Shown here: piece after piece, positions 12,433-36,568 of the stretch | Layout of the letters: each line of letters opens with the position of its first letter | Numbering within the stretch: the stretch's first letter is position 1 | NCBI GenBank assembly: GCA_030621515.1 | Contig: JAUXHN010000018.1 | Coordinates: 1-37,005, forward strand | DNA from: Deltaproteobacteria bacterium | GTDB lineage: Bacteria > Myxococcota_A > Polyangia > JAAYKL01 | Direction: 5' to 3' | DNA: 37,005 nt | The notes under the pieces: model-generated | What the model was told of the DNA's origin: nothing | Database searches by the model: none | What the model saw: the letters and a program-made list of their open reading frames with translations, nothing else | Translations under genes and position numbers: made by a program

Positions 12433-12461
12433 TTGACTTTTTAATACAGTACCAATAACAT
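12433..12461 (+). promoter_or_regulatory. Promoter of the TPR/FHA (Glt-like) operon
   Basis: TTGACT (12433-12438), a 17-bp spacer and TAACAT (12456-12461) are followed by a markedly AT-rich leader of about 120 bp before the ATG at 12586. The 12215-12432 stretch before it shows no ORF or RNA gene that I recognise. Confidence 0.5.
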
Positions 12462-12585
12462 ACGCGAAAATATAAAACATAACTTGTTGAAATTAATAAT
12501 CAAAATGACATCAGCTCGATAAATGCGCAAGGCATAAAAAGCACCGGATTCAGACGATTTGACAATACAAGTAAAGGGGACGGCC

Positions 12586-14307
12586 ATGATTGGAAAGCGA
12601 CTTCTCACCAGCGGGTTGGCTCTTGCGGTTCTCCTCACCCTCGGGGTAGTGGCGAGTGCGCAGGACATGGTGTTCACGACCTCGGATACCGGAAGCGTGG
12701 CGGCGCCGCCACCACCGCCTTCCGGACCACCGAGCGAAGCCCTGGCGAACGCGCTGAGGCTTTACCAGCAGGAGCACTACGGCCAGGCGGCCGTACAGTT
12801 TCAGAGGATTGTGCAGGGCGAGACCGGAGACCAGCCGGCCAACGTCCAGAAGGCGCAATTCTTCCTGGGCAAGTGCTTCTACCACCTGGGTTTCTTCCAG
12901 GCGGCTCTCGGCGTTTTCGAGGAGATAGCCATGATGTCCACGGGGCATCTCTATTTCCAGACCACGCTGCAATGGCTGGCGCAGCTGTCTCGTGAGCTCC
13001 CCGAGCCCGCAGGAATCATCGGGCTGGTCGGCCGTTACGGCGACTCGGTCTCGGTGTTGCAGGAGTTCAACAAGAAAGAGACAAGTGATCTTTACAATGA
13101 ACTTCTCTACCTCATGGGTCGTTACTGGTACCAGCAGGGCGAGTTCGCCAAGGCCCGGGATTTCTTCCTGGAGATTGACAAGAGTGATTCATCGTACGTA
13201 AGCGCGGTGTTCTTTGCCGGCATCACGTTTGTGCGTGAGCGCAAGGCCCAGCCCTCGACCAAGGCGTTTTTATCCATTGTCGACAAGTACGAAGACATTC
13301 TTTTTCTTTCCGACGAGGAGGAGCGTTTCCTGAATCTGGCCTGGTTGTCGCTGGCGAGAATCTATTATTCCACCAAGCACTGGGACAGCGCAGTGGAGGC
13401 CTGGAACCGCATTCCCCAGTCGTCCGAGTATTACCTGGATGCCCAGTTCGAGGAATCGTGGGCGTATTTCCAGGTGGACATGTACGACCGCGCGTTGGGC
13501 AATATCCACACCATGAACTCCCCGTATTTCGAGGGCTATTTCTATCCGGAGTCGGTCATTCTCAAGTCGGTCATCTTTTTCGACCAGTGCTTGTATGAGG
13601 ATGCTCAGGAAACGGTCGTCAAGTTCACCAACAGGTATGAGCCTATCCAGAGGGAGCTGCAGGCTACCGTGACCAAGTTCCAGGACAACCAGCAGTTCTT
13701 CGAGTTCCTGCGCAAGATCCGGCAGATGCACGAACAGGGCGAGCTGGATAAAAGTCTCGAGGGCAGCGTGTCCGTCGGCACCGACGGCGCCTCCGGCAGT
13801 GCCGGCACGGCGCAGCAGCCCGAGAAGATAATGGGATTGTCTCCCGAGGTGCTGGCTGTCATCAAGGGCGCCCTCGACGACCGCACGCTTCTTCGCAATC
13901 TCGAGTACGTCGAGGTGCTCGAGTCCGAGGAGAAGAAGCTGGCCAAGATGCCTCCGCAGTTCGTGAACGCGGCGGCCGGGCAGCGGATCATCCAGGATAT
14001 CGCCACCGCCAAGTCAGTGGCCATCGACAACACCGGGAACCTTGCCCGGTCCAGGTACGAGCGCCTGTTGGTCGAGATTCAGGATCTGCTCAATCAAACC
14101 ACGCGTATTGAGATCGAGATCCTCAAGGCCCTTCGTGGGGAACTGGACCTCGAGATTCAGACGGAGCAGGAGACCACGGGGCCGGTTGTTCAGCAGTCCG
14201 AGATCAAGAGCGACGCCGAGCATGTGATCTGGCCGTTCGAGGGTGAGTTCTGGCGTGACGAACTGGGGTACTATCGGCAGCCGGTTGCCAGCCGGTGTGG
14301 GAGGTAA
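12586..14307 (+). CDS. Exported TPR protein (GltC-like)
   Basis: 573 residues from the ATG at 12586 (AAAGGGGAC upstream). A Sec signal peptide ends near SAQ (about residue 26), then a Pro-rich spacer (APPPPPSGPP) precedes helical repeats. TPR-like units are visible at ALANALRLYQQEHYGQAAVQ, LLYLMGRYWYQQGEFAKARD and LAWLSLARIYYSTKHWDSAV. A low-complexity Ser/Gly/Ala patch (about 395-415) precedes a helical C-terminal region. It probably acts as a periplasmic scaffold. It leads a five-gene operon whose architecture resembles the Myxococcus Glt motility complex, and its best analogue there would be the periplasmic TPR protein GltC; this is inference from architecture. A TTGACA at 12559 lies in the leader. 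Confidence 0.78.
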   Translation: MIGKRLLTSGLALAVLLTLGVVASAQDMVFTTSDTGSVAAPPPPPSGPPSEALANALRLYQQEHYGQAAVQFQRIVQGETGDQPANVQKAQFFLGKCFYHLGFFQAALGVFEEIAMMSTGHLYFQTTLQWLAQLSRELPEPAGIIGLVGRYGDSVSVLQEFNKKETSDLYNELLYLMGRYWYQQGEFAKARDFFLEIDKSDSSYVSAVFFAGITFVRERKAQPSTKAFLSIVDKYEDILFLSDEEERFLNLAWLSLARIYYSTKHWDSAVEAWNRIPQSSEYYLDAQFEESWAYFQVDMYDRALGNIHTMNSPYFEGYFYPESVILKSVIFFDQCLYEDAQETVVKFTNRYEPIQRELQATVTKFQDNQQFFEFLRKIRQMHEQGELDKSLEGSVSVGTDGASGSAGTAQQPEKIMGLSPEVLAVIKGALDDRTLLRNLEYVEVLESEEKKLAKMPPQFVNAAAGQRIIQDIATAKSVAIDNTGNLARSRYERLLVEIQDLLNQTTRIEIEILKALRGELDLEIQTEQETTGPVVQQSEIKSDAEHVIWPFEGEFWRDELGYYRQPVASRCGR

Positions 14308-14312
14308 CGGGT

Positions 14313-17300
14313 ATGATTCGCAATATCGGATTGTTCACGTTCGTCGCTGTGACGGCGGCTTGCCTGGTCCTTTTGACTGCGAACCGGGCCGAGGCGGAGA
14401 AGAAATCCTCAACCCTAGCGGACGAGGAGGTCTGTATCCCCAAGGCGGTGGAGAAGAGGGTTCTCGGTTGTCCCGAGGACATCGATCTCGCCAAGGGAAA
14501 GCTCGGCGGTGCTGTCGGAACGAGCAAGGCAAAAAAGAAGAAGAAAAAAAAGAAGGGGATTGAGGGACCAAGCCTCGAGAAAGGTTTTGTCCAGAACATC
14601 ATTGAGTCCTCTTTCAAGCGCAAGCGCGAGGTTCGCAAGCTCGATATCCTCAAAAAGGAAATCAAGCTGATCCTTCGTCTCGCCAAGCAGACGTCCAACG
14701 AGAATCCCGAGAAGGCGGAGATCCTCAAGCGCCTGGCCGACGCCTACAAGGAAATGTACGATCAAATCAACTTCATGGCGCGCGGCCTCGAGGAGAAGAT
14801 TTTCCGGCAGAAGAGCAAGAAGGAAAAGGCCAAGATGAAGGCCCAGCAGAAGGCTCTCGACAAGAAAGCCAATGCTTACCGGGAAAAATCTATCAAGGCA
14901 TACGTGGAGATTCGCAACCACTTTCCGGACTATCCGGATTACGACGAGATTCTCTTCGCCATCGCCTACGAGATCGACCAGATGGCCGCCCAACAGGAGA
15001 ACAAGAAGAAGAAGGCAAGTTACCGGGAGCGTGGCCGGATATTCTATCAGGAGCTGATCCGCAACTACCCGCGTTCCAGGTTCATCCCACATGCGTGGAT
15101 GGCCTTCGGCGAGTATTATTTCCACGAGGCGATGGACGTCGAGAGGGCGATGCGCGCTTACGAGAAGGTGGTCGAGTGGGGAGAAGAAAACAATCCCAAC
15201 TACGTGGTCGCCATGTACTACCAGGCATGGTGTCTGTTCAATCTTCAGGAATTCAAGAAGACCATCAACCAGTTCAACAAGGTGATTCAATACGCCGAGG
15301 CGAACCCGGAGCACCGTGAGGCACAGGTGGTGGCCAAGCGCTCGCGCATGGAAATGGTCGGAGCGTTTTCCAAGATCGGCAACCCGGCCCAGGCGTGGAA
15401 GTTCTTCCAGCGGGTCGGGGGCAAGCTGGCCCATGCGATGCTCGATAAGCTCGCCGGCCTTTATTACGACGACGGTCATTGGGCCGACGCCATCATCGTG
15501 TTCCACCAGCTCGAGAAGCTGGAGATCGAGAACTACCGGGGCAACGGTGGCGACGACCTGTGCCACTACCAGACCATGGTCACCAATGCGGTTATCAGCT
15601 CCAGGCCAAAAGACGAGCAGGTTGTCGAGATCAAGCGTCAGATCGGACTGTCACAGAGATTCGCCAGCGAGAAGCACGATGCCGCGAAGATCAAGAAGTG
15701 CAACCAGGACTCCATTGCAATAGCCTGGGACCAGTCGACCCAGTGGCACCTTGAGGCCGTGGGCAGCGAGTCCGCGCCAGGCACAAAAGATCACGACACA
15801 ATGCATTTGTGCATCGCCATGTACGACGAGATTCTGTCCAAGTATCCCAAGCTGGACGACATCGAGGTCGAAGGCTTCGATGATAAAACCAGACCCAGCC
15901 GCTACCGCGTTGCGTTCTACAAGGCGGAGCTGTACTGGACCATGGAAGACTGGGCAAACTGCGCGCCCTCCTTCGACGCTGTTGTCGATATGGATCCCAC
16001 CGGGGAGTACACATCCAGCGCGGCCTATGCGGCGGTGCTTTGCTACAACAAGGTTTACGTCAAGGAGCGTGGCGACAAGGACCGTAGCCGAAAGCACAAG
16101 CTCAAGACCGCCGACAAATCCGGCTTCAAGTGCGACAAGACCTGCAAGAAGTGCAAGAAAAAGGAATGCAAGGGCAAGAAGGGAAAAGATAAAAAGAAAT
16201 GCTTCAAGAAGTGTGAAAAGGGCGAAAGAATCGTCCTCGAAGTCAGCCCGCTCACCCCTCTCGAGAAGGGCATTCTCAAGTCATACAACCGATATGTTTG
16301 TTTTGTTACCAAGGGAGAAGATCTTATTAACATCAAATATCGGCGAGCCAGAATCTATTATGAGGCAAACATGTTCGTCGAGGCGGCGGTCCTGTTCAGG
16401 GATATCGCGGTCAATCATTCCACGGACGAGATAGCTGTCTACGCGGCCAACCTCTACCTCGATTGCCTGAACGCTCTCGGGAGCATGGTCGAAAAACCGA
16501 TCCCCTCTTGCTACGACAACCTCTCGGACATCGTCGACCTGTTCATCGACACCAGCAAGAAGCCGGGCGTGGACCTGATGAAGGACGAGGATTTCGCCGG
16601 CCAGATCAAGTCGCTGAAGGTGGGCGTCATGCGGAAGAAGGCGGAGTCCCTCACCATGCGCAGCCGCTTCAAGGAGTCGGCGGAGATCTATCTCGATATT
16701 TATCGAAATTATTCAGGTGTCTACGATGAGCGTGGAATGTGCGAGGTGCTGTTCAACACAGCCATCAACCTGGAGTCCGCGCGTCTCGTCATGTCCGCCA
16801 TCAAGGTGCGCGAAAAGATGATCGAACTCTACCCGAAGTGCGAGCACTCCAAGAAGGCTGCGTACTTCATCGGACAGAACTACCACGCGCTGCAGTCATT
16901 CTCCATGGCGGCCGACAACTACGTGTCATTCGCCAAGAAGTACTCCGGCGAGGACGAGGCCCCCGAGGCGCTCTCCAACGCGGTCATGTTTTACATCGGC
17001 CTCGGCAAGCCGGACAGGGCCTTCTCGACGGTCAAGACTTTCGAGAAAAACTATTCCGGGCGTCGGACGGCCGAGACGGCCACGGTAGTGTTCAGCGCCG
17101 GCTATATTTACATCAATGATGATGAATGGGAAAGATCGCGCAAATGGTACACCTCGTACCTGAGGCGCTACTCCAAGGCCAAGCTTGTCGACGAACAGGT
17201 TCAGGCCAACGTGATCATCGGTGATACGTACTGGAATGCAAGGCGGAGAGACACGGCCAAGGCTCTCAAGTACTACAAGAAGGCCGTGGCTGTTCATGAC

Positions 17301-18167
17301 AAGGGCAAGGCTACGGTCACGGTGAACAAGCGCAAGGCCGCCATGCTCATCGCTGTTGCGAAGGCCAAGTACTACATTGCCGAGGTCAGGTATTTTGCGT
17401 TCAAGAAGGTCAAATTCCCTGATTTCGTCGGCTCCAGGAAGACCTCGGACAAGATCGAGAGATGGTGGAAGAAGGAACAGGGTCCGGAGAAGATCAAGGC
17501 CATGGAGAAGTGGGCCAAGGACAGGCGTCGACTTGCCAGGTGGGGGTACTACGACGAGAGCAAGTCAAGGCGCGATCAGATGAAGGAAGTCAAGAAAGAA
17601 GAGAAAAAGGAAGCTCTCGACATCCAGTTCACTTACTGGGGGGTGCACAAGCTCAAGCCGTGGATCGAAAAGAAGGCGGCTCTTCTGGAAGAGACCACCA
17701 AGCTGTTCGCCGAGGTGGCAGCGGTTCACATCCCCGAGTGGGAGATGGCGGCCGCTGCACGTGCGGGTGATATGCAGCTGCAGTTCATGAACGCGCTCTA
17801 TGATTCCCCGCTTCCGCCGTCCTTCAAGGGCGATCAGGAACTCATCGACATCTACCGCACCGAGATGGACAAGAAGGCGGAGCCTTACCGTAAAGGCGCC
17901 GTCGGCGGTTTCGCACACTGCCTCAATATCTCCACCAAGGTCAGGTGGTTCAATGAGAACTCTCTGCGTTGCGAGCGCGAGCTCAGCAAGCTGGAGCCTC
18001 TGAAATATCCGATATCACAGGAGATACGCGTGCAACCGAAGTTTGAGTTCAGTTTCTGGTCCAGGCCCGAGCCCGTGCTGGCGCTCGAGACCGAGGCCGA
18101 GAAGCGAGAGAAGAAGTTGACTGCATCTGCGGCTGAGATTTCTGCCAAGTCCGCAGAATCGAAGTAG
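14313..18167 (+). CDS. Very large exported TPR protein (GltD/AgmU-like)
   Basis: 1284 residues from the ATG at 14313, with a GGGAGG ribosome-binding site that overlaps the end of the previous gene. A signal peptide is followed by cleavage near AEA (about residue 29). A lysine run (KAKKKKKKKKG) sits near residue 75. Most of the remainder is helical TPR/HEAT-like repeats (for example HAWMAFGEYYFHEAMDVERA and AAYFIGQNYHALQSFSMAAD). A Lys/Cys-rich insert at residues 607-634 contains six cysteines. Size, export and position match GltD (AgmU), the roughly 1200-residue TPR protein of the Myxococcus gliding complex, but identity is inferred. It is codon-typical for its neighbours apart from AAG-rich stretches. 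Confidence 0.82.
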   Translation: MIRNIGLFTFVAVTAACLVLLTANRAEAEKKSSTLADEEVCIPKAVEKRVLGCPEDIDLAKGKLGGAVGTSKAKKKKKKKKGIEGPSLEKGFVQNIIESSFKRKREVRKLDILKKEIKLILRLAKQTSNENPEKAEILKRLADAYKEMYDQINFMARGLEEKIFRQKSKKEKAKMKAQQKALDKKANAYREKSIKAYVEIRNHFPDYPDYDEILFAIAYEIDQMAAQQENKKKKASYRERGRIFYQELIRNYPRSRFIPHAWMAFGEYYFHEAMDVERAMRAYEKVVEWGEENNPNYVVAMYYQAWCLFNLQEFKKTINQFNKVIQYAEANPEHREAQVVAKRSRMEMVGAFSKIGNPAQAWKFFQRVGGKLAHAMLDKLAGLYYDDGHWADAIIVFHQLEKLEIENYRGNGGDDLCHYQTMVTNAVISSRPKDEQVVEIKRQIGLSQRFASEKHDAAKIKKCNQDSIAIAWDQSTQWHLEAVGSESAPGTKDHDTMHLCIAMYDEILSKYPKLDDIEVEGFDDKTRPSRYRVAFYKAELYWTMEDWANCAPSFDAVVDMDPTGEYTSSAAYAAVLCYNKVYVKERGDKDRSRKHKLKTADKSGFKCDKTCKKCKKKECKGKKGKDKKKCFKKCEKGERIVLEVSPLTPLEKGILKSYNRYVCFVTKGEDLINIKYRRARIYYEANMFVEAAVLFRDIAVNHSTDEIAVYAANLYLDCLNALGSMVEKPIPSCYDNLSDIVDLFIDTSKKPGVDLMKDEDFAGQIKSLKVGVMRKKAESLTMRSRFKESAEIYLDIYRNYSGVYDERGMCEVLFNTAINLESARLVMSAIKVREKMIELYPKCEHSKKAAYFIGQNYHALQSFSMAADNYVSFAKKYSGEDEAPEALSNAVMFYIGLGKPDRAFSTVKTFEKNYSGRRTAETATVVFSAGYIYINDDEWERSRKWYTSYLRRYSKAKLVDEQVQANVIIGDTYWNARRRDTAKALKYYKKAVAVHDKGKATVTVNKRKAAMLIAVAKAKYYIAEVRYFAFKKVKFPDFVGSRKTSDKIERWWKKEQGPEKIKAMEKWAKDRRRLARWGYYDESKSRRDQMKEVKKEEKKEALDIQFTYWGVHKLKPWIEKKAALLEETTKLFAEVAAVHIPEWEMAAAARAGDMQLQFMNALYDSPLPPSFKGDQELIDIYRTEMDKKAEPYRKGAVGGFAHCLNISTKVRWFNENSLRCERELSKLEPLKYPISQEIRVQPKFEFSFWSRPEPVLALETEAEKREKKLTASAAEISAKSAESK

Positions 18168-18177
18168 GAGGTTACCC

Positions 18178-19758
18178 ATGCTGAAGAACGCAAAAATCAT
18201 CGTTCGGGTTACCGGGATTCTGATAGCGCTCGTGGTTCTCGGTTGCGGCGGCGCCAAGGTGAAGGGCGTAGACGGAGAGACAGGTGGAGTGGACGCCGAT
18301 GGCAAGCCAATCATCACCAAGGAAGCGCGAAAGGACTTCGACAGGGCAGTCGAGGCCTATAAAGAGGCCAAGAAAGAAGGCTGGAACGAGAAAAACTGCG
18401 AGTCCGTGGCAAAGAAATTCAGGGCCGTGGCCAAGGGGCACAACAACATGGTGGAAGCCATGTACAACGTTGGTTGCATATACGATGAATGCAAGATGAA
18501 GGACAAGGCGAAGGCCGAGTTCAAGAACACACTCAAGAAGCACGAGAAGCATCAACCGTCCATGATCCACCTGGCAATCCTCGCCCTCGAGGCGGGTAAG
18601 GATGAGGACGGGCAGGCAAAGCTGAAGGAGGCCATCCTCGCCGGCCGCAACACGCTCGAGGCGGTGCCGGCATACAACCTGGCCGCCACAATCCTGCGGG
18701 CCAAGGCCAAGGAGGGCGACGGGGAGGCCTGGAAGAAGGCTCAGAAGAACCTGCGAACCGCCCTGGCCATCGATTCCAAGTATATGCCGGCGTTATACCA
18801 ATTGACGATGCTCTATTACGACATTGCAGTGGAGTTGAAGAAGCCGTCGTACCTGACCCTGGCCAGCCTGGTGTTCAATCAGGCGGTCAAGCTCGATCCT
18901 GAGTACGCGCCCAACTATCACGCGCTGGGGCTCATCAATCTCCAGAAGAACGAGCTGGTCGAGGCCCTCAAGGCGTTCGAGGCGGCTTTTCAGAAGGACC
19001 CGAACCTCTACGAGGCCTACATGAGCTTCGGCGCCATCAACCTGAACTTCCGGGGTTATGTCGAATCGAAGAGCGCTTTTGAAAAGGCTATTGGGCTCAA
19101 ACCGGGTAGCTACGATGCACACATGGGGCTCGGAGTGGCGGCCCGCGGACTGGGCGACTTCACGCTCGCCAAGGCGGAGTACAAGAAGGCCGCGGAGATC
19201 AATCCGGCCAGAACCGATTACATCTTCAATCTCGGGCTGTTGGAGATGGACTACACCAACGACGGCACGCCGGAGGGTTACGCAAAGGCGAGCAAGGTCT
19301 TCGAGAAGTTCCTGAAGAAGGCGACCAAGGCTCACAAGAAGGATCCTGACGGCAGGAGGGGCAAGCAGATCTCCTGGTACAAAAAGGCGGAGAGACGCAT
19401 CAAGTCATGCAAGAAGGCCGAGAAACAGATCCGCGAGGCCCTGAAGGAGATGGCCGAGCTCGAGAAGATGGCTGCCGAGCAAGCCGTGATCGCCAAGGAA
19501 GCCGAGGACATGCAGAAGAAGGCCGAGGAGCTCGCCAAGGAAGAGGCCGCGGGTAAGGTTGCCAAGGGTGAAGAAGTGGACGAGGCGGCCATCGAGGCGG
19601 AGCTCGCGGCGGAGGAGAAGGCCGCGGAGGAAGCGGCCAAGGCCGAGAAGAAGGCCAAGAAGGCCGAGAAGGAAGCCGAGAAGGCCGAGGAAGAGGCCGA
19701 GAAGGATAAAAAGACTGCCGAGGACAAGGAAAAAGGTTCCGTGGACCTGGAGGGATAA
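18178..19758 (+). CDS. TPR lipoprotein (GltE/AglT-like)
   Basis: 526 residues. AGGAGG lies 6 nt upstream of the ATG. The N-terminus is a lipoprotein signal with lipobox VLGC (Cys23). Classic TPR motifs occupy about 60-360: YAPNYHALGLINLQKNELVE, PNLYEAYMSFGAINLNFRGY and SYDAHMGLGVAARGLGDFTL are consecutive 34-residue units. The C-terminal 130 residues form an Ala/Lys/Glu coiled coil (KAEKKAKKAEKEAEKAEEEA) ending in a charged tail. The architecture is that of AglT/GltE, a TPR lipoprotein of the Myxococcus gliding machinery thought to reside at the outer membrane. It is expected to dock with the large TPR protein encoded upstream. The functional assignment is inference. Confidence 0.82.
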   Translation: MLKNAKIIVRVTGILIALVVLGCGGAKVKGVDGETGGVDADGKPIITKEARKDFDRAVEAYKEAKKEGWNEKNCESVAKKFRAVAKGHNNMVEAMYNVGCIYDECKMKDKAKAEFKNTLKKHEKHQPSMIHLAILALEAGKDEDGQAKLKEAILAGRNTLEAVPAYNLAATILRAKAKEGDGEAWKKAQKNLRTALAIDSKYMPALYQLTMLYYDIAVELKKPSYLTLASLVFNQAVKLDPEYAPNYHALGLINLQKNELVEALKAFEAAFQKDPNLYEAYMSFGAINLNFRGYVESKSAFEKAIGLKPGSYDAHMGLGVAARGLGDFTLAKAEYKKAAEINPARTDYIFNLGLLEMDYTNDGTPEGYAKASKVFEKFLKKATKAHKKDPDGRRGKQISWYKKAERRIKSCKKAEKQIREALKEMAELEKMAAEQAVIAKEAEDMQKKAEELAKEEAAGKVAKGEEVDEAAIEAELAAEEKAAEEAAKAEKKAKKAEKEAEKAEEEAEKDKKTAEDKEKGSVDLEG

Positions 19759-19761
19759 AAA

Positions 19762-19782
19762 AAGTTCTTTTTAAGGGAACTT
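19762..19782 (+). other. Weak intercistronic hairpin
   Basis: AAGTTC and GAACTT (6-bp stem, extendable by G-U pairs) lie just after the TPR lipoprotein stop codon. No T-run follows, so it is more likely a processing or attenuation structure than a terminator. Confidence 0.3.
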
Positions 19783-19846
19783 ATTGAAAAGTAGATTGTC
19801 TATCGCTGCGGAAGCGCGATTTGCAAGGAGAAGGAAGGGAAGAAAA

Positions 19847-20089
19847 ATGAAGATCCTCACTGGCATTGTGGCTGGAGTAGGTTTCATGCTTCTGGTCGGC
19901 TCAGCTTTTGCGCAGGTTTCTTACGCGGAGAAAACCGAATACTCATTCGATGACGATGTGGTCACAGGCGACCTCGTCAGACCGGATGGGGAGTTGACCG
20001 TTGTTCGTAAGAAGGGAAAACAGCGAAGCCTGATTCGGGTGCGTCAGCATTTCATTCCGGAGATGCTGAAGTCCGTGGAGGACATCTAG
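19847..20089 (+). CDS. Small exported protein of the Glt-like operon
   Basis: 80 residues from the ATG at 19847 (purine-rich AAGGAGAAGGAAGGG upstream). A signal peptide ends near AFA (residue 22). The mature protein is only about 58 residues: a EKTEYSFDDDVVTGDLVRP segment, a basic patch (RKKGKQRSL) and the ending FIPEMLKSVEDI. I recall short proteins with this FDDD-GDLVRPDG pattern beside AgmX/TPR genes in myxobacteria, but cannot confirm it here. It has no cysteine and no membrane segment after the signal. Its place between the TPR lipoprotein and the FHA/TonB-like gene suggests a periplasmic accessory subunit of the same complex. Confidence 0.75.
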   Translation: MKILTGIVAGVGFMLLVGSAFAQVSYAEKTEYSFDDDVVTGDLVRPDGELTVVRKKGKQRSLIRVRQHFIPEMLKSVEDI

Positions 20090-20158
20090 TCCGAATCGGG
20101 AAATCGGTGGTTTGAGAAGGGTTGGTTCGCCAGCCATGAACAAAGATAGGAAAAGGCC

Positions 20159-22060
20159 ATGAGTGCACTGACAATCAATTTCAAGATCCTCAAAGATGGT
20201 GAAATCGTCAAGGAGGAGTCTCTCTCCAGGGACGTGATCAAGATTGGCAGGATGGCGTCAAGTCACTTGCAGATTGACGATGAAGGCATCTCGAGGATGC
20301 ATGCGGTCATCGAGGTATCCGGACCTGATGATGTGCACATTATCGACCTCGGGAGCGCCGAGGGGACTATTGTCAACGGCAAGAAGGTAAACAAATCTGT
20401 TCTGGCGAGTGGGGATAAGGTCACCCTCGGCGGAGTGGAGATCGAGGTGACCTTCTCGGCCGGAGTGCAAGAGGCAGCCGCGCCCGTGGCCCGGGCCGCC
20501 CCTCCGCCAGCGCCTCCGATGGCGCCGATGTTTGCGGCTCAGGCCGCCGCTTCGTCGCCCGCAGTGCCGGCTGCGGTTCCATCCACCGTCGGCGTTACCG
20601 CCGGGTCGATGTTCATAGATCTGAACACCGTGGAGGATGTCAACAAGCAGGCCATCGAGGTTGTGGTGATGTGGAACGGGTCTGTGCTTCAGGTCAAGCA
20701 TTTCAAAGCAGACGAAAAGAAGCCCGAGAACTTCTATATTGGTGAGGATTTCACCTGCGATTTCCCGATCCCCGCAGAGGAACTGAAGGGAGCCACAAAG
20801 GTTCCGCTGGTCGTCAACCACGTCGGAGGCGGGGCCACTGTCAGCATCCTTCCGGGCGGAGCCGGTGATGTGACCCACGAGGATGGTAAGCGGGTTTCGC
20901 TGGCGGACATGGTAAGCGGGGGTCAGGCGCAGTCGTCGGCCGAGGTTCCCGGCGGGTACAGCTTCGCGTTGCCTCCCAAGGCCAGAACAAAGATGGACTT
21001 CGGTCCGTGGACGTTCCTTGTAAATGCCGTACCCAACCCAAAGAGATTCGTGGCCCCCATTCAGCTGGATTGGACGTCGCAGATTTACACCGGGTTCTCC
21101 ATGATCCTGCACGCTGTGTTTCTGTTCCTCATCTATTTCATCCCGCCGGATCCCGAAGGCCTGTCTCTCGACTTGCTCGATGAGAACAACCGGTTCATCA
21201 AGTACATGCTCAACCCTGCGGAGATTCAGCAGGACGAAGTTCCCGAGTGGTTGAAGAAAGACAAGAAAGACGAGGAGCAGGGCGGTAAAGGAAAGCGTCA
21301 TAAGGGCGAAGAAGGCCAGATGGGTAAGCGCGACTCCAAGAAGACCGACAACCATTACGGGATCAAGGGGCCAAAGGACAACCCGAACCCGCACATGGCG
21401 CGCTCAATGGCCAAGGAGATGGCAAAGTCTGCCGGTATCCTCAGCTACCTTTCGGCGGCAAATGCACCCACATCGCCATTCGGTCAGGACACGGCTCTCG
21501 GTATCGATCCCGAGAACGCACTGGGCGCCCTGATGGGCAACCAGGTCGGCGAGAACTTCGGCTACGGTGGTCTCGGACTGCGCGGTACCGGTCGTGGCGG
21601 TGGCGGTACCGGTGAGGGCACCATCGGATTGGGTAACCTCAACACCATCGGTCACGGCGGTGGCGGCGGATCCGGTTCCGGGTACGGACGCGGCGCGGGC
21701 GGCCTCGGCGGGCGGCGCGGCAGGGCGCCCAGAATTCGTTCCGGCGCGGCGATGGTCAAGGGCTCTCTGTCCAAGGAAGTCATCCGAAGGATCGTTCACA
21801 GGCACATCAACGAGGTCAAGTTCTGCTACGAGAAGCAGCTTGCCCAACGCCCGGACCTGTCGGGTCGTGTCGCAATCAAGTTCATCATCTCCGGTACGGG
21901 AGCTGTCCAGATGGCCGCCGTTGCTTCATCCACATTGGGCAACGCCCAGGTCGAGAACTGCATCGCCCAGGCGGTGCGTCGGTGGACCTTCCCGCAGCCC
22001 GAGGGTGGAGGAATCGTCATCGTGACATATCCCTTCATGCTCACATCGCCGGAGGGCTAG
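20159..22060 (+). CDS. FHA-TM-AgmX/PglI (TonB-like) envelope protein, GltG-like
   Basis: 633 residues from the ATG at 20159. Residues about 5-100 are an FHA phosphothreonine-binding domain (VIKIGRMASSHLQIDDEGISR then MHAVIEV; NGKKVNKS). An Ala/Pro-rich linker and a second cytoplasmic region follow. A single transmembrane helix lies near 312-331 (FSMILHAVFLFLIYFI), then a charged Lys/Glu region and a Gly-rich linker (450-525). The C-terminal 100 residues are an AgmX/PglI-type TonB-like domain (EVKFCYEKQLAQRPDLSGRV and CIAQAVRRWTFPQPEGG). This is the architecture of GltG in Myxococcus, which couples a cytoplasmic FHA domain to periplasmic TPR proteins. It closes the five-gene operon. Confidence 0.88.
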   Translation: MSALTINFKILKDGEIVKEESLSRDVIKIGRMASSHLQIDDEGISRMHAVIEVSGPDDVHIIDLGSAEGTIVNGKKVNKSVLASGDKVTLGGVEIEVTFSAGVQEAAAPVARAAPPPAPPMAPMFAAQAAASSPAVPAAVPSTVGVTAGSMFIDLNTVEDVNKQAIEVVVMWNGSVLQVKHFKADEKKPENFYIGEDFTCDFPIPAEELKGATKVPLVVNHVGGGATVSILPGGAGDVTHEDGKRVSLADMVSGGQAQSSAEVPGGYSFALPPKARTKMDFGPWTFLVNAVPNPKRFVAPIQLDWTSQIYTGFSMILHAVFLFLIYFIPPDPEGLSLDLLDENNRFIKYMLNPAEIQQDEVPEWLKKDKKDEEQGGKGKRHKGEEGQMGKRDSKKTDNHYGIKGPKDNPNPHMARSMAKEMAKSAGILSYLSAANAPTSPFGQDTALGIDPENALGALMGNQVGENFGYGGLGLRGTGRGGGGTGEGTIGLGNLNTIGHGGGGGSGSGYGRGAGGLGGRRGRAPRIRSGAAMVKGSLSKEVIRRIVHRHINEVKFCYEKQLAQRPDLSGRVAIKFIISGTGAVQMAAVASSTLGNAQVENCIAQAVRRWTFPQPEGGGIVIVTYPFMLTSPEG

Positions 22061-22173: not shown

Positions 22174-23433
22174 ATGAACAGCTTGAGAACCGTCAAGGGA
22201 ATGCACGATATCCTGCCGAAGGAGATGCCCAAGTGGCATTTCCTGGAGGGAACCTTTCGTGAACTGGTCGGCAGGTTCGGTTACCAGGAGATCCGAACAC
22301 CCGTAGTGGAGCCGCTCGAGCTCTTCGTACGCGGGATAGGTGAGGTCACCGATATCGTCGAGAAGGAGATGTACGCTTTCGAGGACAAGGGCGGCGCCAG
22401 GCTCGCGCTTCGCCCCGAGGGGACAGCCTCGGCCATCCGATCGTACATTCAGCACAACATCGGCGGACAGCAGCCGATCACCAAGTTCTACTATATCGGC
22501 CACATGTTTCGCCGCGAGCGCCCCGCAAAGGGGAGATACCGGCAGTTCTACCAGGCCGGCGCCGAGCTGATCGGAGTGGAGGAGCCCACTGCGGATGCAG
22601 AGATAATCGACATGGCTGTGCAGTTCGTGGAGGCCCTGGGAATTGAGAATGTCAGCGTTCAAATAAACAGCCTGGGCGATCAGGAGACGCGCCCGCTGTT
22701 TCGAGATGCGCTTGTCGAGTATTTCACCGGGGATTTGAACAAGCTGTGCCCGGATTGTCGACGAAGACTCCAGACCAATCCCTTGAGAGTGCTCGATTGC
22801 AAAGTACCGGATTGCGTGGAGGCGGCAGCGGGGGCACCGTCTGTGCTGGACCATCTCACGGGGGAATCCGCCAGTCATTTCAATGAGTTGAAGAGACTAC
22901 TCGGTGAAAACGGGACGCCGTATCAGGTGGCGCCGAAGATGGTGAGAGGCCTCGACTACTATACCAGGACGATCTTCGAGATACAGGGCGAATCAGATAC
23001 CCTGGGATCGCAGGCCACGATCGTCGGCGGCGGACGTTACGACAATCTGGTGAAGGATCTCGGAGGAAAGCAGACTCCTACAATCGGGTTTGCCTTTGGA
23101 ATAGAGAGGCTGCTCCTCATGTTGGGTCCAGGAGCTTCCATCGCTGTGCGACCCACGATCTACGTTGCGGGTATAGGTGATGGAGGGCTGGACAGGGCGA
23201 TTGCCCTGGCCAGGACCTTAAGGAAGGCGGGAAACAAGATCGAGGTGTCGTACAGGGAGGGAAGCCTGAGGTCGCAGTTGAAGCGCGCGGATCGTTACGG
23301 ATCGATCATCGCGATTATCGCTGGAGAAGACGAAGCGGCGCGAGGCAAAGTGACCTGGCGAAACATGAAGGACGGATCTCAGGAAGAAGTGTCGTTGTCT
23401 GACCTTGACAAGCGCCTGGAGGCGCACAAGTGA
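22174..23433 (+). CDS. hisS: Histidyl-tRNA synthetase
   Basis: 419 residues, full length. The class II core starts with RTVKGMHDILP. Motif 2 is in YYIGHMFRRERPAKGRYRQF, followed by QAGAELIG. The histidine-specific signature is MVRGLDYYTRTIFEI, and motif 3 is PTIGFAFGIERL. The C-terminal anticodon-binding domain covers about 325-419. It charges tRNA-His. The insertion region holds cysteines CPDCRR and LDCKVPDC, a possible zinc site seen in some bacterial HisRS. The following gene overlaps its stop codon by 4 bp (GTGA), so the two are translationally coupled. The upstream region lacks a ribosome-binding site. Confidence 0.96.
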   Translation: MNSLRTVKGMHDILPKEMPKWHFLEGTFRELVGRFGYQEIRTPVVEPLELFVRGIGEVTDIVEKEMYAFEDKGGARLALRPEGTASAIRSYIQHNIGGQQPITKFYYIGHMFRRERPAKGRYRQFYQAGAELIGVEEPTADAEIIDMAVQFVEALGIENVSVQINSLGDQETRPLFRDALVEYFTGDLNKLCPDCRRRLQTNPLRVLDCKVPDCVEAAAGAPSVLDHLTGESASHFNELKRLLGENGTPYQVAPKMVRGLDYYTRTIFEIQGESDTLGSQATIVGGGRYDNLVKDLGGKQTPTIGFAFGIERLLLMLGPGASIAVRPTIYVAGIGDGGLDRAIALARTLRKAGNKIEVSYREGSLRSQLKRADRYGSIIAIIAGEDEAARGKVTWRNMKDGSQEEVSLSDLDKRLEAHK

Positions 23434-25238
23434 CAGACAGATACACTACCGTCGCATTGTCGGCTTTCATGCTGGCGATCATCTTCCTGCCATTCCCGGC
23501 TGTGGCCGATGATTTCGAGGAGGAAGCAGGCTTAGAGGAACCCGACGACGAGAAGGGTGGGAAATCTTCCGGCAAGGGCGCTGTCGGGTTGGACGGCATC
23601 GAGTTGAAGGAACTGGAGGAGGACTACGAGCCTAAAATCAAGCGGTTCATTATTCCGCCCTACTACTCCGAGAAATCCGAGCACGTTTCCACGACGGCCA
23701 TTTTTCCGCTGTTCTACTCCAGGCAGAGAACCGGGGAGGGTGCCCGAAAAGACCTTGGGCTCTTGCCATTCTACTGGAGATATCGCGAGGGGCCTTCGAG
23801 CGCCGACGTGTATTTCCCGTTTTATTGGCGTTTTCGAGATCCGGAGTTCAAGACGGATATCATTCCACCAGTTTACTACAATCGAGACGATCATGGATAC
23901 AACCTGGGCCTGGCGCCGCTCGTATTCCTCGGAAAAGACGAACGACGCAAGTCCGAGTATCAGGTGTTGCCGCCTTTGTTCTGGAACTTCAAGAACAAGC
24001 ACGGCGGGTTCATGTGGGCGGGATGGTACTACGATTACCGAAATCGCGGCGACAGCGATCGCGGCATTCCGCCACTGTTCTTTGCAGGCCGCAACAGGGA
24101 CAAGACATACTTGACGGTATTGCCCCCGCTCTTCTGGCGATTCACCGACGAGGTGAACTACAAGACCACAACAGTGCTACCGCCCTTCTTCTTCAGGACC
24201 AGGGAGACCGGCTGGAGTGCCGGCCTTGTGCCGTTATTGTATTTTGCCAGGGATGAGAACTGGGCGAGAACGCTGATCACACCTCTCTATTATGGAAGCA
24301 GGTGGGGTAAAGGTCGAAGCCACTATTTTCCACTGTTGCTCTCTTACTATCGTCACGCCCCCAACCTTTCTCAGGGTGGCGTCGCGATCTTTTATCACTG
24401 GTACGAAAAGGAAGGCGACTATCTCAAGATGTACTCGCCCCTGCTGTGGAGATTTGGCAACGAGCGGACCGACGACAGGAGTTTGCTGGTTCCGCCGATC
24501 TTCTACAAGCGCGACACACCGGTTTCCGACGACACCATGGTCGGGCTCGTTTACTGGAATTTCCACGAGCACTATCGGGAGCGCACCTTTGCGCTCATGC
24601 CCATCTTCGGTCACAACTGGAGCCTGCACGAGAAAAGATGGCGCACATGGGTGGCGCCGACCTTCGACGTCGGGGTTCACCCGGACGGCTATCACGCGCG
24701 CATTCATCCGATCTTCTACCTGGGCCGTGGAAAGCGGGACAACCACTTGGTGCTCGCGCCGATCTTCTGGCGATTCGTGGATGAGGAAGACAGGAACACG
24801 GTTGTTTTTCCCCTGATCTGGAACTTCCGGGATCTGGCGCACAACTCTCTGGACAGGGCGTTCTTCCCGCTCTGGTGGCAGTTCGACGATTATCGCCGCC
24901 ATGACTACAAGCGTGTGTTCTTCCCGCTGGTGTGGGACTTCAACGATGAGAAGAACGAAGAGAGGTCCACGGTCGTGTTGCCGCTGTTCTGGAGAGATCG
25001 CGATCCTGTCAGCACCATGACCGGGGTCTTCAATGTTGTCTTGCACAAGGGCGAGATCAAGGAGAACCCCTTCTGGACGTTCCAGATCTTCCCGTTCATT
25101 GCGATGGGAAAACCGCCCGCGCCACAAGGTGCTTACTGGTCGTTCCTGGGCGGACTCGCCGGCTGGCGCCGCCAGGGCAGCACCAAAGAGTTGAAAATCC
25201 TCTGGATACCCTTCGACCTGACCAAGGACGAGGAATAG
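23430..25238 (+). CDS. Exported protein made of about two dozen aromatic PLFWRF-type repeats
   Basis: 602 residues from a GTG overlapping the hisS stop. A signal peptide (AVA, about residue 26) is followed by an acidic, Gly/Lys-containing spacer (27-70). From about residue 70 to 560 there is a tandem array of roughly 18-20-residue units, each with a hydrophobic-Pro-Leu-aromatic-aromatic core and an Arg/Asp turn: IFPLFYSRQR, YFPFYWRFRD, VLPPLFWNFKN, VLPPLFWRFTDE, LAPIFWRFVDEE, VFPLIWNFRD, FFPLVWDFND. The pattern suggests short beta hairpins, as in a beta-solenoid or an outer-membrane barrel. No known family was recognised. Coupling to hisS may be only transcriptional convenience. Confidence 0.8.
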   Translation: MTDRYTTVALSAFMLAIIFLPFPAVADDFEEEAGLEEPDDEKGGKSSGKGAVGLDGIELKELEEDYEPKIKRFIIPPYYSEKSEHVSTTAIFPLFYSRQRTGEGARKDLGLLPFYWRYREGPSSADVYFPFYWRFRDPEFKTDIIPPVYYNRDDHGYNLGLAPLVFLGKDERRKSEYQVLPPLFWNFKNKHGGFMWAGWYYDYRNRGDSDRGIPPLFFAGRNRDKTYLTVLPPLFWRFTDEVNYKTTTVLPPFFFRTRETGWSAGLVPLLYFARDENWARTLITPLYYGSRWGKGRSHYFPLLLSYYRHAPNLSQGGVAIFYHWYEKEGDYLKMYSPLLWRFGNERTDDRSLLVPPIFYKRDTPVSDDTMVGLVYWNFHEHYRERTFALMPIFGHNWSLHEKRWRTWVAPTFDVGVHPDGYHARIHPIFYLGRGKRDNHLVLAPIFWRFVDEEDRNTVVFPLIWNFRDLAHNSLDRAFFPLWWQFDDYRRHDYKRVFFPLVWDFNDEKNEERSTVVLPLFWRDRDPVSTMTGVFNVVLHKGEIKENPFWTFQIFPFIAMGKPPAPQGAYWSFLGGLAGWRRQGSTKELKILWIPFDLTKDEE

Positions 25239-32726: not shown

Positions 32727-33665
32727 ATGAGATTTGGAAACCCGCGTTTGATAAGCTTGGTATCGTGTGTCGGTTTTATCATTGTGTTGGCAGTGGCGAC
32801 ATGCGCAGTGGGTGAGGAACCGCTATACGGGACTTCCAGGACGATGGATCCCAGGACCCTCGGATTGGCGGGGGCTTCCCTGGCCACGCCCTCCAGTGTT
32901 TCAGGCCTGTACCTGAATCCGGCCACCATCGCCATGGCTCATATTTATCACTTGAACCTGATGTACCAGTTCACGGGGCAGGAAAATCTGCACATGGGCG
33001 GGATCGCGATCGTCGATTCCGTGACGTCGTCGACAATTGCGGCGGGTCTGGCGGTCAACTACCTCGCCGCCAATCACGATCACACCCACCACCAGTCATG
33101 GGACGGGAGGTTGGCTGTAGGTGGGAATATTGGAGATGTGTTCTTCATCGGCCTGACAGGGCGGTATATTCGAGTGGAGCACGATCTGAAATCGGCGGAT
33201 CGCGGGCCGAACGGTCGACCGGCCATGCCCTCGTCCGGGAGCCAGCAAGTAGACGGATTCACGTTTGATGCGGGCGCCGCGCTGAATGCCGGAAATGTCC
33301 TGCGCATCGGCGTGACCGGTTATAACCTGAGCAACACGGATAGCATTTACGCGCCCTTGCAGCTCGGGAGCGGTGTGGCGGTCTCTCTGGTTGAAATGTT
33401 GAACATCGAGGCGGATGTTGTTTTCGATTTCACCAGCCACGAGAAGGTGAACGAGGAAATACGCACAGGGCTCGAGCTCCTCGTTGCGGGGCGGGTTCCA
33501 TTGCGATTGGGTTACCTTCACGATGTTTACTACCACATCAACTCCATCGCCGCCGGCGTGGGCTATGTCGACAAAGCGTTTGCCATCGATCTCGGCTACA
33601 GCCATGAGCTGAGGCAAGGCGGAAGATTTCAACTCGCCTTGGGTTTACGTATCTTTATAGGCTAG
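32727..33665 (+). CDS. Outer-membrane beta-barrel protein (PorV/PorQ- or FadL-like)
   Basis: 312 residues. A signal peptide ends near VGE (about residue 29). The mature N-terminus reads TLGLAGASLATPSSVSGLYL followed by NPATIA, a pattern shared by PorV/PorQ-type and FadL-like barrels. The remainder alternates in beta-strand fashion (LHMGGIAIVDS, GLAVNYLAANH, FFIGLTGRYIRVE, VLRIGVTGYNLSN) and ends with a typical barrel strand (FQLALGLRIFIG). The function may be a passive channel or secretion-associated porin. It is divergent from dnaA across the putative origin and precedes the ECF sigma gene. Confidence 0.78.
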   Translation: MRFGNPRLISLVSCVGFIIVLAVATCAVGEEPLYGTSRTMDPRTLGLAGASLATPSSVSGLYLNPATIAMAHIYHLNLMYQFTGQENLHMGGIAIVDSVTSSTIAAGLAVNYLAANHDHTHHQSWDGRLAVGGNIGDVFFIGLTGRYIRVEHDLKSADRGPNGRPAMPSSGSQQVDGFTFDAGAALNAGNVLRIGVTGYNLSNTDSIYAPLQLGSGVAVSLVEMLNIEADVVFDFTSHEKVNEEIRTGLELLVAGRVPLRLGYLHDVYYHINSIAAGVGYVDKAFAIDLGYSHELRQGGRFQLALGLRIFIG

Positions 33666-34330: not shown

Positions 34331-34747
34331 ATGGACCATGATCGCGCAAGAGAACTATTCACCGCATATCACGATGGAGAATTGTCCATTGGCGAAGTCG
34401 AGGAACTGGAGTCCCACCTTGCAGCCTGTGAAGCTTGCTCGGCGGAGTGGGATACCTATCGCAGGACCATGGAGGAGATATCGGGCCTGCACAAGTTCGC
34501 CGCTCCTGTGGGAATGACCGAGGCGGTCGAACAGAAGATCAAGCGGCGTAGCAAGGGCAGGTTCTTCAGTGAGCAGCGCTCCTTCAGTACTCAGTTTGCG
34601 ATAGTTTCCTTCATCCTCATCCTGCTGTTCATGTTGGCCTACCTGGTGATGACCGAGGTTACGGAGATTACTGTGCTGGAGGAAGACGATCCGGTCACCG
34701 ACGGGAAAACCACTACGGCGCAGGAGAGAGACGCAGGGGCAAGATAA
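34331..34747 (+). CDS. Zinc-finger transmembrane anti-sigma factor
   Basis: 138 residues. The N-terminal anti-sigma (ZAS, zf-HC2) domain has the metal ligands His29, Cys33 and Cys36 (ESHLAACEACSAEW). A transmembrane helix follows at about 89-108 (FAIVSFILILLFMLAYLVM), leaving a short acidic extracytoplasmic tail of some 30 residues. It should hold the upstream ECF factor inactive at the membrane until released by proteolysis or redox change. It lies 2 bp downstream of the sigma gene. Its last 35 bp overlap the end of the oppositely oriented FecR-domain gene. Confidence 0.88.
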   Translation: MDHDRARELFTAYHDGELSIGEVEELESHLAACEACSAEWDTYRRTMEEISGLHKFAAPVGMTEAVEQKIKRRSKGRFFSEQRSFSTQFAIVSFILILLFMLAYLVMTEVTEITVLEEDDPVTDGKTTTAQERDAGAR

Positions 34748-35918
34748 GCTCGATCGCTCCGCCCGAAGGTGGCGGAAAGACCATCCCCTGAAATGCCCTG
34801 GACAGACAGGTTTCGAGCTCGGGCCACTTCTCGGTGCCCTTCAGGCGAACTTTCGAGACATGCCCCTTGCTGTTCACGTCGAGTCGGGCGGTCACCGAGA
34901 TGGTTGTATACAGAGATGGAAATCTCTGCAGAGATGTCTCGTAACAACTGGTGAGCTTGGGCCTGGTGTGGTTCATGACCTCGCGGACGACACGTTTTGA
35001 TAGTGTTCCTGCGGGGCGGTAGAGCTTGTTCTCCAGCGCGCCCGCGTCAACGTGGATCGGATCTTCTGTGAGAGATGGGGCCTTCATGAGGGGGAGGAGT
35101 CGTTGCCGGTTGATGGTCGATGGGGAATCCGGCAATCGCCACTTGTCGGCGACGAGCGTAATCTGTTCCGTATCGGAGATTGGCAGGACCTCGCCGGATC
35201 GGACGCGTATCTTCGGGTTCTCGCCGCTATCGATGGAGAATTCAACACTGCCGGAGAAGATGGCGAACGAGGCGCCGGCCGCAAGAACGATCAACTCGCT
35301 TTCGAGAGCGCCTGGTGGAACGGTAATGATGAAGATACCTCTTTGCAGGCTGACGGTCGGGGTCTGAACGTTGGATGATACCAGGTTCAACGCCGAGGAA
35401 GGACCCATCTCCAGTCGTGCATCGGGCCCCAGGGCGAGGCGAACGCCTCCGTTGTCGTCGGTGCCGACCAGGGCTCCGCAGTGAAGATCGGCGCCCTTCG
35501 GAGGACAGTGAGTTGCCCCAACGGTGTCGACGACCGCGATCTTCAGTTGCTCCGGGAGGATCGTGGAGGGTGTGGAATGTGGCAAATGCGTCACATTGAG
35601 ATCAGGCACAAGGAGAATCAGGACCACAGCTGCTGCGGCTGCCGCAGTCAGGGCCAACGGGAACCATGCTACCCCGGCTGTTTCGGTTTCTTTCACCTGA
35701 CGGATCGCGCGCTCTATCCCCGCGTCGATCACGCTCCAGTCCGGCTCGTCAGGAGCAAGAGCGTCGGCGGCGGCATCCCTGAGCGCCGACAATGTTGAGA
35801 CCTTCTTTGCACATGCCGGGCATCCGACAAGATGAGCGTTCAGGCGAATCCTGTCGTCATCGGCGAGGTCGTGGTTGACGAGTGCGAAGGCCTCGCGGTC
35901 TTTGAGGCATCGCGTCAT
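34713..35918 (-). CDS. Anti-sigma/FecR/TonB-like fusion protein
   Basis: 401 residues with an uncommon domain order. Residues 1-45 are a zf-HC2 anti-sigma domain with His29, Cys33, Cys36 (AHLVGCPACAKKV). A transmembrane helix lies at about 85-105. Residues about 130-245 are a FecR-like periplasmic domain (GGVRLALGPDARLEMG, SLQRGIFIITVPPGALE, FAIFSGSVEFSID). The C-terminal 95 residues resemble the AgmX/PglI TonB-like domain (RPKLTSCYETSLQRFPSLYT and LETCLSRAFQGMVFPPPSGG). It presumably senses an envelope signal through the FecR/TonB-like parts and controls the adjacent ECF sigma. Its ATG overlaps the sigma stop (ATGA), so the two are coupled. Confidence 0.85.
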   Translation of the reverse strand: MTRCLKDREAFALVNHDLADDDRIRLNAHLVGCPACAKKVSTLSALRDAAADALAPDEPDWSVIDAGIERAIRQVKETETAGVAWFPLALTAAAAAAVVLILLVPDLNVTHLPHSTPSTILPEQLKIAVVDTVGATHCPPKGADLHCGALVGTDDNGGVRLALGPDARLEMGPSSALNLVSSNVQTPTVSLQRGIFIITVPPGALESELIVLAAGASFAIFSGSVEFSIDSGENPKIRVRSGEVLPISDTEQITLVADKWRLPDSPSTINRQRLLPLMKAPSLTEDPIHVDAGALENKLYRPAGTLSKRVVREVMNHTRPKLTSCYETSLQRFPSLYTTISVTARLDVNSKGHVSKVRLKGTEKWPELETCLSRAFQGMVFPPPSGGAIELILPLRLSPAP

Positions 35919-36568
35919 CTGGATTCCCCCTCGAAGAGCGAGCCTTCGAACGCGGGTTCCTTTGCGAGGCGCTCGTAAAAGGTCTTGCGGGCGTAAAACA
36001 ACCTCGTGCGCACGGTCAGTGCGGGCGCGCCGACAACCCCGGCGATCTCCCGGGACGACATTCCCTGAAAATCCGCGAGGATCAACACCAGCCTCTTTTT
36101 TGGGGCCAGTGTATCCAGAACTCTTTGTACTGCGGCTTGCCGATCCCCGAGCATGGCCTCCTGTTCCGGGGTATCGGGGCCCTCGTCGAGATTCAGGGCA
36201 ACGTTGCGGGTGGGGTCGTCATTGAAATGAAGGCGAACCCTTCGACCTTTTTTCCTGATGTACTGGAGGGTTACGTTGAATGCTACCCTGTGGATCCAGG
36301 TGGAGAGCTTCGACGTTCCCTTGAAGCCGTTGATGGACTTGAAAACCTGGAGAAAGGCGTCCTGGACCACTTCGTCGCGGTCGGCGGAGTTGTTGATCAT
36401 CCTGGACACGACACCATACACGATCAGGCGATGCGCGTGATAGATCTCGCGAAATGCATCCGAATCACCTGCCTTGCAGCGCGCCACGAGGTCCACATCA
36501 GGATCGTGGGCCTTGTCCGTATCGGGGTGAAAGGTGTATTCCATGAATACTGCAACGGCGGCTACCAT
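35915..36568 (-). CDS. ECF-type RNA polymerase sigma factor
   Basis: 217 residues from the ATG at 36568, which has GGAGG 11 nt upstream; an in-frame ATG at 36544 lacks a ribosome-binding site. Region 2 reads FREIYHAHRLIVYGVVSRMI, RDEVVQDAFLQVFKSING and LSTWIHRVAFNVTLQYIRKK. Region 4 reads LILADFQGMSSREIAGVVGA then LTVRTRLFYARKTF. No region 3 is present. It pairs with the FecR-type anti-sigma gene downstream (4-bp overlap). Its leader can form a stem-loop that masks the ribosome-binding site, so translation may be controlled as well as activity. Confidence 0.92.
   Translation of the reverse strand: MVAAVAVFMEYTFHPDTDKAHDPDVDLVARCKAGDSDAFREIYHAHRLIVYGVVSRMINNSADRDEVVQDAFLQVFKSINGFKGTSKLSTWIHRVAFNVTLQYIRKKGRRVRLHFNDDPTRNVALNLDEGPDTPEQEAMLGDRQAAVQRVLDTLAPKKRLVLILADFQGMSSREIAGVVGAPALTVRTRLFYARKTFYERLAKEPAFEGSLFEGESR

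Follow-up and report, generated by a model that had tools for sequence, protein, structure and literature searches.

Described Agl/Glt systems and the locus under study

In Myxococcus xanthus, the Agl/Glt machinery is encoded in clusters G1 (gltD-J), G2 (gltK-B-A-C) and M1 (aglRQS), with GltD, GltE, GltF and GltG measuring 1191, 471, 89 and 640 residues, respectively (PMC3169522). GltG binds AglR, and the Myxococcus model treats GltG and GltJ as arms resembling TolA/TonB, with proton flow through AglRQS driving cyclic contact with GltA/B in the outer membrane (PMC5349195, PMC3169522). A single AglRQS drives both Glt and the Nfs sporulation complex (nfsA-H), whose proteins are GltA-H paralogues encoded in the same synteny, without counterparts of GltI and GltJ (PMC3858216). 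In Gammaproteobacteria and Geobacter, a Group B core consists of gltC, gltD, gltE, gltG and aglRQS in one cluster, GltF being a later, 'Group A' addition, and Bdellovibrio has four sets, with core clusters in an expanded form (Bd0828-0838) (Luciano et al. 2011, PMC3169522). Here, we analyze a gltC-D-E-F-G locus in a 37,005-nucleotide stretch of DNA (the window; contig JAUXHN010000018.1) from a Deltaproteobacteria bacterium of the Polyangia, a 4.64-Mb metagenome-assembled genome (MAG) of 346 contigs that is 95.9% complete and whose named relatives are Myxococcota or 'Deltaproteobacteria' MAGs. The locus is a real Glt operon of a known machine that is common in its phylum; the twist lies at the level of the genome, where the other parts are dispersed, the M1 motor is missing, and a motor is likely shared.

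Like M. xanthus Agl/Glt, the window encodes homologues of GltC through GltG in order and of similar lengths, and the genome has homologues of GltA/B, GltI, GltJ and MglBA at other loci. The differences from M. xanthus are that gltC is joined to gltDEFG, that the genome carries no M1-clade AglRQS, and that the profile scores fall below the equivalog cut-offs.

A gltC-D-E-F-G operon conserved across Myxococcota

Five closely packed genes at 12586-22060 (+), separated by gaps of about 5, 10, 88, and 69 bp, match GltC, GltD, GltE, GltF (CglF) and GltG in this order. The gltC homologue (12586..14307, +; 573 residues, the start chosen from ortholog length) encodes a signal peptide and TPR and matches the NCBIfam model NF033756 (4.6e-72, 243 bits, cut-off 450). 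The gltE (aglT) homologue (18178..19758, +) encodes a 526-residue TPR lipoprotein with the lipobox LVVLGC (NF033758, 4.4e-26, 92 bits, cut-off 225), and the gltF (cglF) homologue (19847..20089, +) a small exported protein of 80 residues with a signal peptide (NF033764, 67 bits, cut-off 90; 1.3e-18, or 8e-19 when taken from the likely start). The gltG (pglI) homologue (20159..22060, +; 633 residues; NF033760, 5.6e-135, 451 bits, cut-off 650) combines a cytoplasmic FHA domain (residues 27-91; PF00498, 5e-17), a single transmembrane (TM) segment near residue 310, and a periplasmic TonB-like C-terminus matching myxo_SS_tail (1.5e-32). Because none of the four matches reaches its equivalog cut-off, GltC, GltE, GltF and GltG are, as judged from these profiles, homologues and not certified equivalents; for GltG, the cut-off is passed by none of the 189 sampled Myxococcota genomes, and the 451 bits of the window sequence (scored as protein) come near the best value among them, 472 bits. 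Between gltC and gltE lies a gene for a 1284-residue protein with a signal peptide and TPR (14313..18167, +), whose Pfam and NCBIfam matches are TPR/ybgF-like only (at E <=0.001, one TPR-type model). In syntenic operons, the gene that separates gltC from gltE is its homologue (7e-218 to the GltD of locus L216); position, length, signal peptide, and this homology, which is to GltD of other loci and not of M. xanthus, identify it as the putative gltD (agmU).

An earlier note on this DNA had described five consecutive genes, for two exported TPR proteins, a TPR lipoprotein, a small exported protein and an FHA-TM-TonB-like protein, and had likened them to GltC/GltD/GltE/GltG of a trans-envelope complex. 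This description holds with refined coordinates: position 12433, given there as the start, belongs to a promoter-like match upstream of gltC (TTGACT-17-TAACAT, 12433..12461, +; a consensus match only) and is not a start codon. The likeness is borne out by the profile matches of GltC, GltE and GltG and by synteny, which also support the trans-envelope reading, and the small exported protein turns out to be GltF/CglF. With four dedicated NCBIfam Glt models matched at 1.3e-18 to 5.6e-135, the similarity exceeds that expected of generic TPR or TonB-like proteins.

The gltC-D-E-F-G order recurs in >25 other Myxococcota loci across the class, in line with the co-occurrence that the earlier note had proposed to look for, and therefore neither the compactness of the operon nor the linkage of gltC is special to the window. 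Within the family, GltG was found in 10 of 13 relatives (66-98% identity). The operon matches its neighboring genes in GC and GC3 and thus gives no indication of having been acquired recently. Downstream of gltG, the family has hisS followed by a family-specific exported gene; in class relatives, gltG is followed by a gene for a TPR lipoprotein of ~290 residues and then one for a GltI-like TPR protein of ~2960 residues or longer. The first of these was considered as GltH and rejected, being a TPR lipoprotein and not an outer-membrane protein (OMP), and upstream of gltC, the examined loci contain no OMP_myx_plus-like gene such as the M. xanthus G2 cluster, with GltA/B next to gltC, would predict. 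In these comparisons, iteration let the GltE profile drift towards TPR proteins in general, and matches off the canonical position were ignored.

Dispersed Glt components

The window contains no motor genes and no GltJ-type gene, as the earlier note had stated; in searches made by family or by protein, MotA/ExbB, ExbD and GltJ-architecture genes are located on other contigs. Contig C234 carries a GltB-GltA-like OMP_myx_plus pair, assigned to GltA/B by family, pairing and order, which is intact in the congener G002 (locus L272), and GltA/B-like OMPs occur as a pair in most relatives as well. A GltI-like frame of 3890 residues on contig C235 (38% identity over 1214 residues) adjoins a TPR lipoprotein gene (7.6e-67), and therefore the module adjacent to gltG in class relatives has been relocated in the family of the window. 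On contig C3, a protein of GltJ architecture combines a zinc ribbon with a GYF region and the tail (8.3e-32), and on contig C12, MglB (1.6e-25) is encoded beside a Ras-like GTPase, matching the MglA/MglB polarity switch. Thus, the genome possesses the GltA/B pair as well as GltI and GltJ of the Agl/Glt machinery, in the form of homologues. With these components and MglB/MglA homologues elsewhere in the genome, the operon looks like part of a dispersed, nearly complete Glt machine and not a primitive core.

Three Agl/Glt sets in one genome

The window operon (system I) is one of three Agl/Glt sets. System II, which fits the ancestral-type core, is intact in G002 (L205, 3586-18315), where it comprises a 261-aa gene, GltC-, GltD- and GltE-like genes, AglR-Q-S, a GltG-like gene, genes for 221- and 443-aa products, and an EpsE/Wza-like gene; the copy in the genome under study is split over contigs C257, C15 and C12 (loci L053, L204 and L052). 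The co-location of aglRQS with gltC, gltD, gltE and gltG that defines Group B is thus seen in L205 and in the C257/C15/C12 cluster, whose content is that of the Group B core; the window operon, in contrast, lacks motor genes and includes GltF, and hence is not that core. The suggestion of the earlier note that the locus might be an ancestral or repurposed envelope machine is accordingly not the best reading, given that GltF is a Group A addition, that GltA/B, GltI, GltJ and MglBA are encoded elsewhere, and that an ancestral-type core with its own AglRQS exists at another locus.

System III spans contigs C316 (L050) and C241 (L054), joined through an identical contig-end overlap, and encodes MtsD/CglD-like lipoproteins, AglRQS, a GltG-like protein, an OMP, GltC- and GltD-like proteins, and a sigma-54/FHA regulator. 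Its three lipoproteins, beside AglRQS, match MtsD and, weakly, CglD (5e-12), and might belong to a surface adhesin system. The presence of several sets per genome, with group A genes partly present, recalls Bdellovibrio; that genus, however, lacks GltI and GltJ (PMC3169522), both of which have counterparts here, and the window genome differs also in that its motor is unlinked.

AglRQS clades and the missing M1 motor

All AglR homologues of interest are encoded in R-Q-S triplets, and a maximum-likelihood tree divides them into four clades, C316-type, M1 (support 100/99), C1 and C2. M1 remains a clade when outgroups are omitted (100/99.7), and joining the C2 AglRs of the family to M1 was rejected (p-AU 0.012). 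M1 triplets are stand-alone and include those near GltG in L071 and L099; C2 is the motor of system II. The C1 triplets are also stand-alone and lie back-to-back with M1 triplets, in divergent orientation, in L207, L208 and L212, with duplicated AglR in some cases. Although the tree was built without the M. xanthus sequence, the stand-alone arrangement and wide occurrence of M1 in the class suggest that it corresponds to the M. xanthus AglRQS clade.

Among 39 genomes, M1 was found in 17 (one a fragment), C2 in 20, both in none, and neither in two fragmentary ones (Fisher p 3e-9, a value that ignores phylogeny and hence overstates the exclusion). M1-clade AglRQS was found neither in the genome under study, where the triplets are of the C2 and C316 types only, nor in the 19 C2-carrying relatives; 15 of the C2 genomes, the present one included, carry system I GltG. 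The absence of M1 from a single MAG could be an assembly gap, but its absence from 20 genomes is not. The search of the rest of the genome proposed in the earlier note thus recovered the GltA/B pair and the C2 and C316-type AglRQS, and not M1. The lack of motor genes in the window is normal, given that M. xanthus also has its AglRQS unlinked; the unusual point is a whole genome without M1-clade AglRQS.

A possible motor-engaging signature in GltG

The TM segment of GltG holds an S-x3-H motif (GFSMILHAVF), with the His kept in all 11 GltGs of the family and the Ser at -4 in 10. This SxxxH motif resembles the motor-contacting motif of TonB and TolA. The tail was modelled by structure prediction as a TonB-like domain (predicted local distance difference test [pLDDT] 81), and the PDB folds that match the model best come from the C-terminal domains of TonB (probability up to 1.00, E 2.5e-3). 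GltG thus shares tail fold and TM motif with TolQRA and ExbBD-TonB; what sets it apart from those systems is its FHA domain, its TPR partners, and motors of the AglRQS type, which contain two ExbD-like subunits. The conserved His has been noted before (PMC12204202). Since the motif and the tail are both kept, selection seems to have preserved the ability of GltG to engage a motor, the candidates in this genome being the C2 and C316 triplets. SxxxH was rejected as a marker of motor type, being present in M1 genomes such as G022, G030 and G038 and missing in others.

Related tails and paralogues occur elsewhere. Contig C29 encodes a GltG paralogue (L060, 8364-9932) that lacks FHA, is 46% identical over the rest and has the SxxxH motif; similar FHA-less copies exist in other class members. 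On contig C141 (L051, 2-1327), a vWA-type protein matching a marine sortase target family, truncated by the contig end, has a C-terminus 58% identical to the GltG tail. Within the window, an anti-sigma-factor-like protein (zf-HC2; 34713-35918, -) ends in the same TonB-like myxo_SS_tail and adjoins an apparent extracytoplasmic function (ECF) sigma gene (35915-36568, by inspection); it is a possible sensor of envelope signals.

Neighboring genes in the window

Overlapping the end of hisS is a gene for a 602-residue exported protein with repeated aromatic motifs, PLFWRF/PFYWRFR (23430-25238, +), which has no Pfam or NCBIfam match and follows hisS only in the family of the window. As a family-specific neighbor without library match and with a poor structural model (pLDDT 31), it was rejected as a Glt component. 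A gene at 32727-33665 (+) weakly matches the PorV/PorQ family (38 bits against a cut-off of 90) and possibly encodes an outer-membrane protein.

Probable motor sharing and alternative explanations

Given that M1 is missing from this genome and from 19 relatives that keep C2, we infer that the Glt complex borrows the C2 motor: gltC-D-E-F-G would belong to a Glt-type machine, one that is probably driven by the C2 AglRQS of the coexisting core system (C15/C12). Motor sharing has a precedent, because the AglRQS of M. xanthus serves two complexes. Following the Myxococcus model, GltG would be an inner-membrane protein whose TM helix meets the TolQ/ExbB-type motor and whose periplasmic arm ends in the TonB-like domain; GltC, GltD, GltE and GltF would assemble into a periplasmic and outer-membrane TPR scaffold, GltA/B (C234) would provide the outer-membrane barrels, and GltI (C235), GltJ (C3) and MglB/MglA (C12) would supply the cytoplasmic side. 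Proton flow through the pentamer:dimer motor would then cause GltG to exert a cyclic push on the components in the outer membrane, thereby moving a surface load, and gliding is the most likely use of such a complex.

Several points weigh against this interpretation. The mutual exclusivity of M1 and C2 is strongly structured by phylogeny and represents far fewer than 39 independent events. The family members G010 and G013 have C2 without window-type GltG, and therefore C2 must have a cognate complex of its own. The uneven distribution of SxxxH, found in some M1 genomes and missing from many others, means that the motif does not specify the motor used. The scores below the equivalog cut-offs allow that function has drifted; GltH, GltK and CglB, for which no model was searched, are not among the identified components; and, to our knowledge, the family has no cultured member in which gliding could be seen.

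An unlikely but serious alternative is that the operon serves Nfs-like or other transport of polysaccharide or protein over the surface instead of gliding. Here, the scores below the equivalog cut-offs and the components just named count in its favor, as do the paralogy and shared synteny of Nfs with GltA-H and the EpsE/Wza-like polysaccharide-export gene in the C2 cluster of the same genome. Nfs also has one contiguous C-D-E-F-G block and shares its motor with another complex. Nfs, however, has no GltI or GltJ, whereas GltI- and GltJ-like genes and MglBA are present in this genome, and in class relatives the operon runs into a TPR lipoprotein gene and a gltI-like gene, as in Myxococcus G1 and unlike nfsA-H (PMC3169522, PMC3858216). 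The absence of M1 from this genome and 19 relatives could also mean that the complex became motorless and persists as a static scaffold of the envelope or a platform for adhesion; this is improbable in view of the retained GltG TM motif and tail, with the His in 11/11 family members, the conservation of the operon in 10/13 family relatives at 66-98% GltG identity, and the two other AglRQS triplets in the genome. One of these, the C316-type AglRQS of the third system linked to thrombospondin-type MtsD/CglD-like lipoproteins, is the sole triplet besides C2, and adhesin-like lipoproteins are encoded nearby; yet, the C316 set comes with GltG-, GltC- and GltD-like genes and an OMP of its own and is seen in fewer M1-less genomes than C2, making it a doubtful motor for system I. 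That generic TPR and TonB-like genes are neighbors by chance, as the TPR-type matches of GltD alone might suggest, is refuted by the four specific profile matches and the phylum-wide synteny, and its probability is negligible.

Borrowing of the C2 motor by the Glt complex may not be confined to this genome. We tentatively propose that in several Myxococcota families, a gliding-type Glt complex exchanged its dedicated AglRQS, since lost, for the motor of a coexisting core system, with one motor driving two outer-membrane machines, although this broader scenario may well prove incorrect. Luciano et al. 2011 left open how motors and complexes are paired and by what route a gliding machine arose from a core whose function is unknown. 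In the present lineage, a Glt-type machine exists beside a third set and an ancestral-type core that has its motor, whereas the usual motor is absent. It is also suggested that uncultured relatives may be able to glide. Should motor sharing prove true, comparison of the M1 and C2 lineages could be used to probe how AglR and GltG interact.

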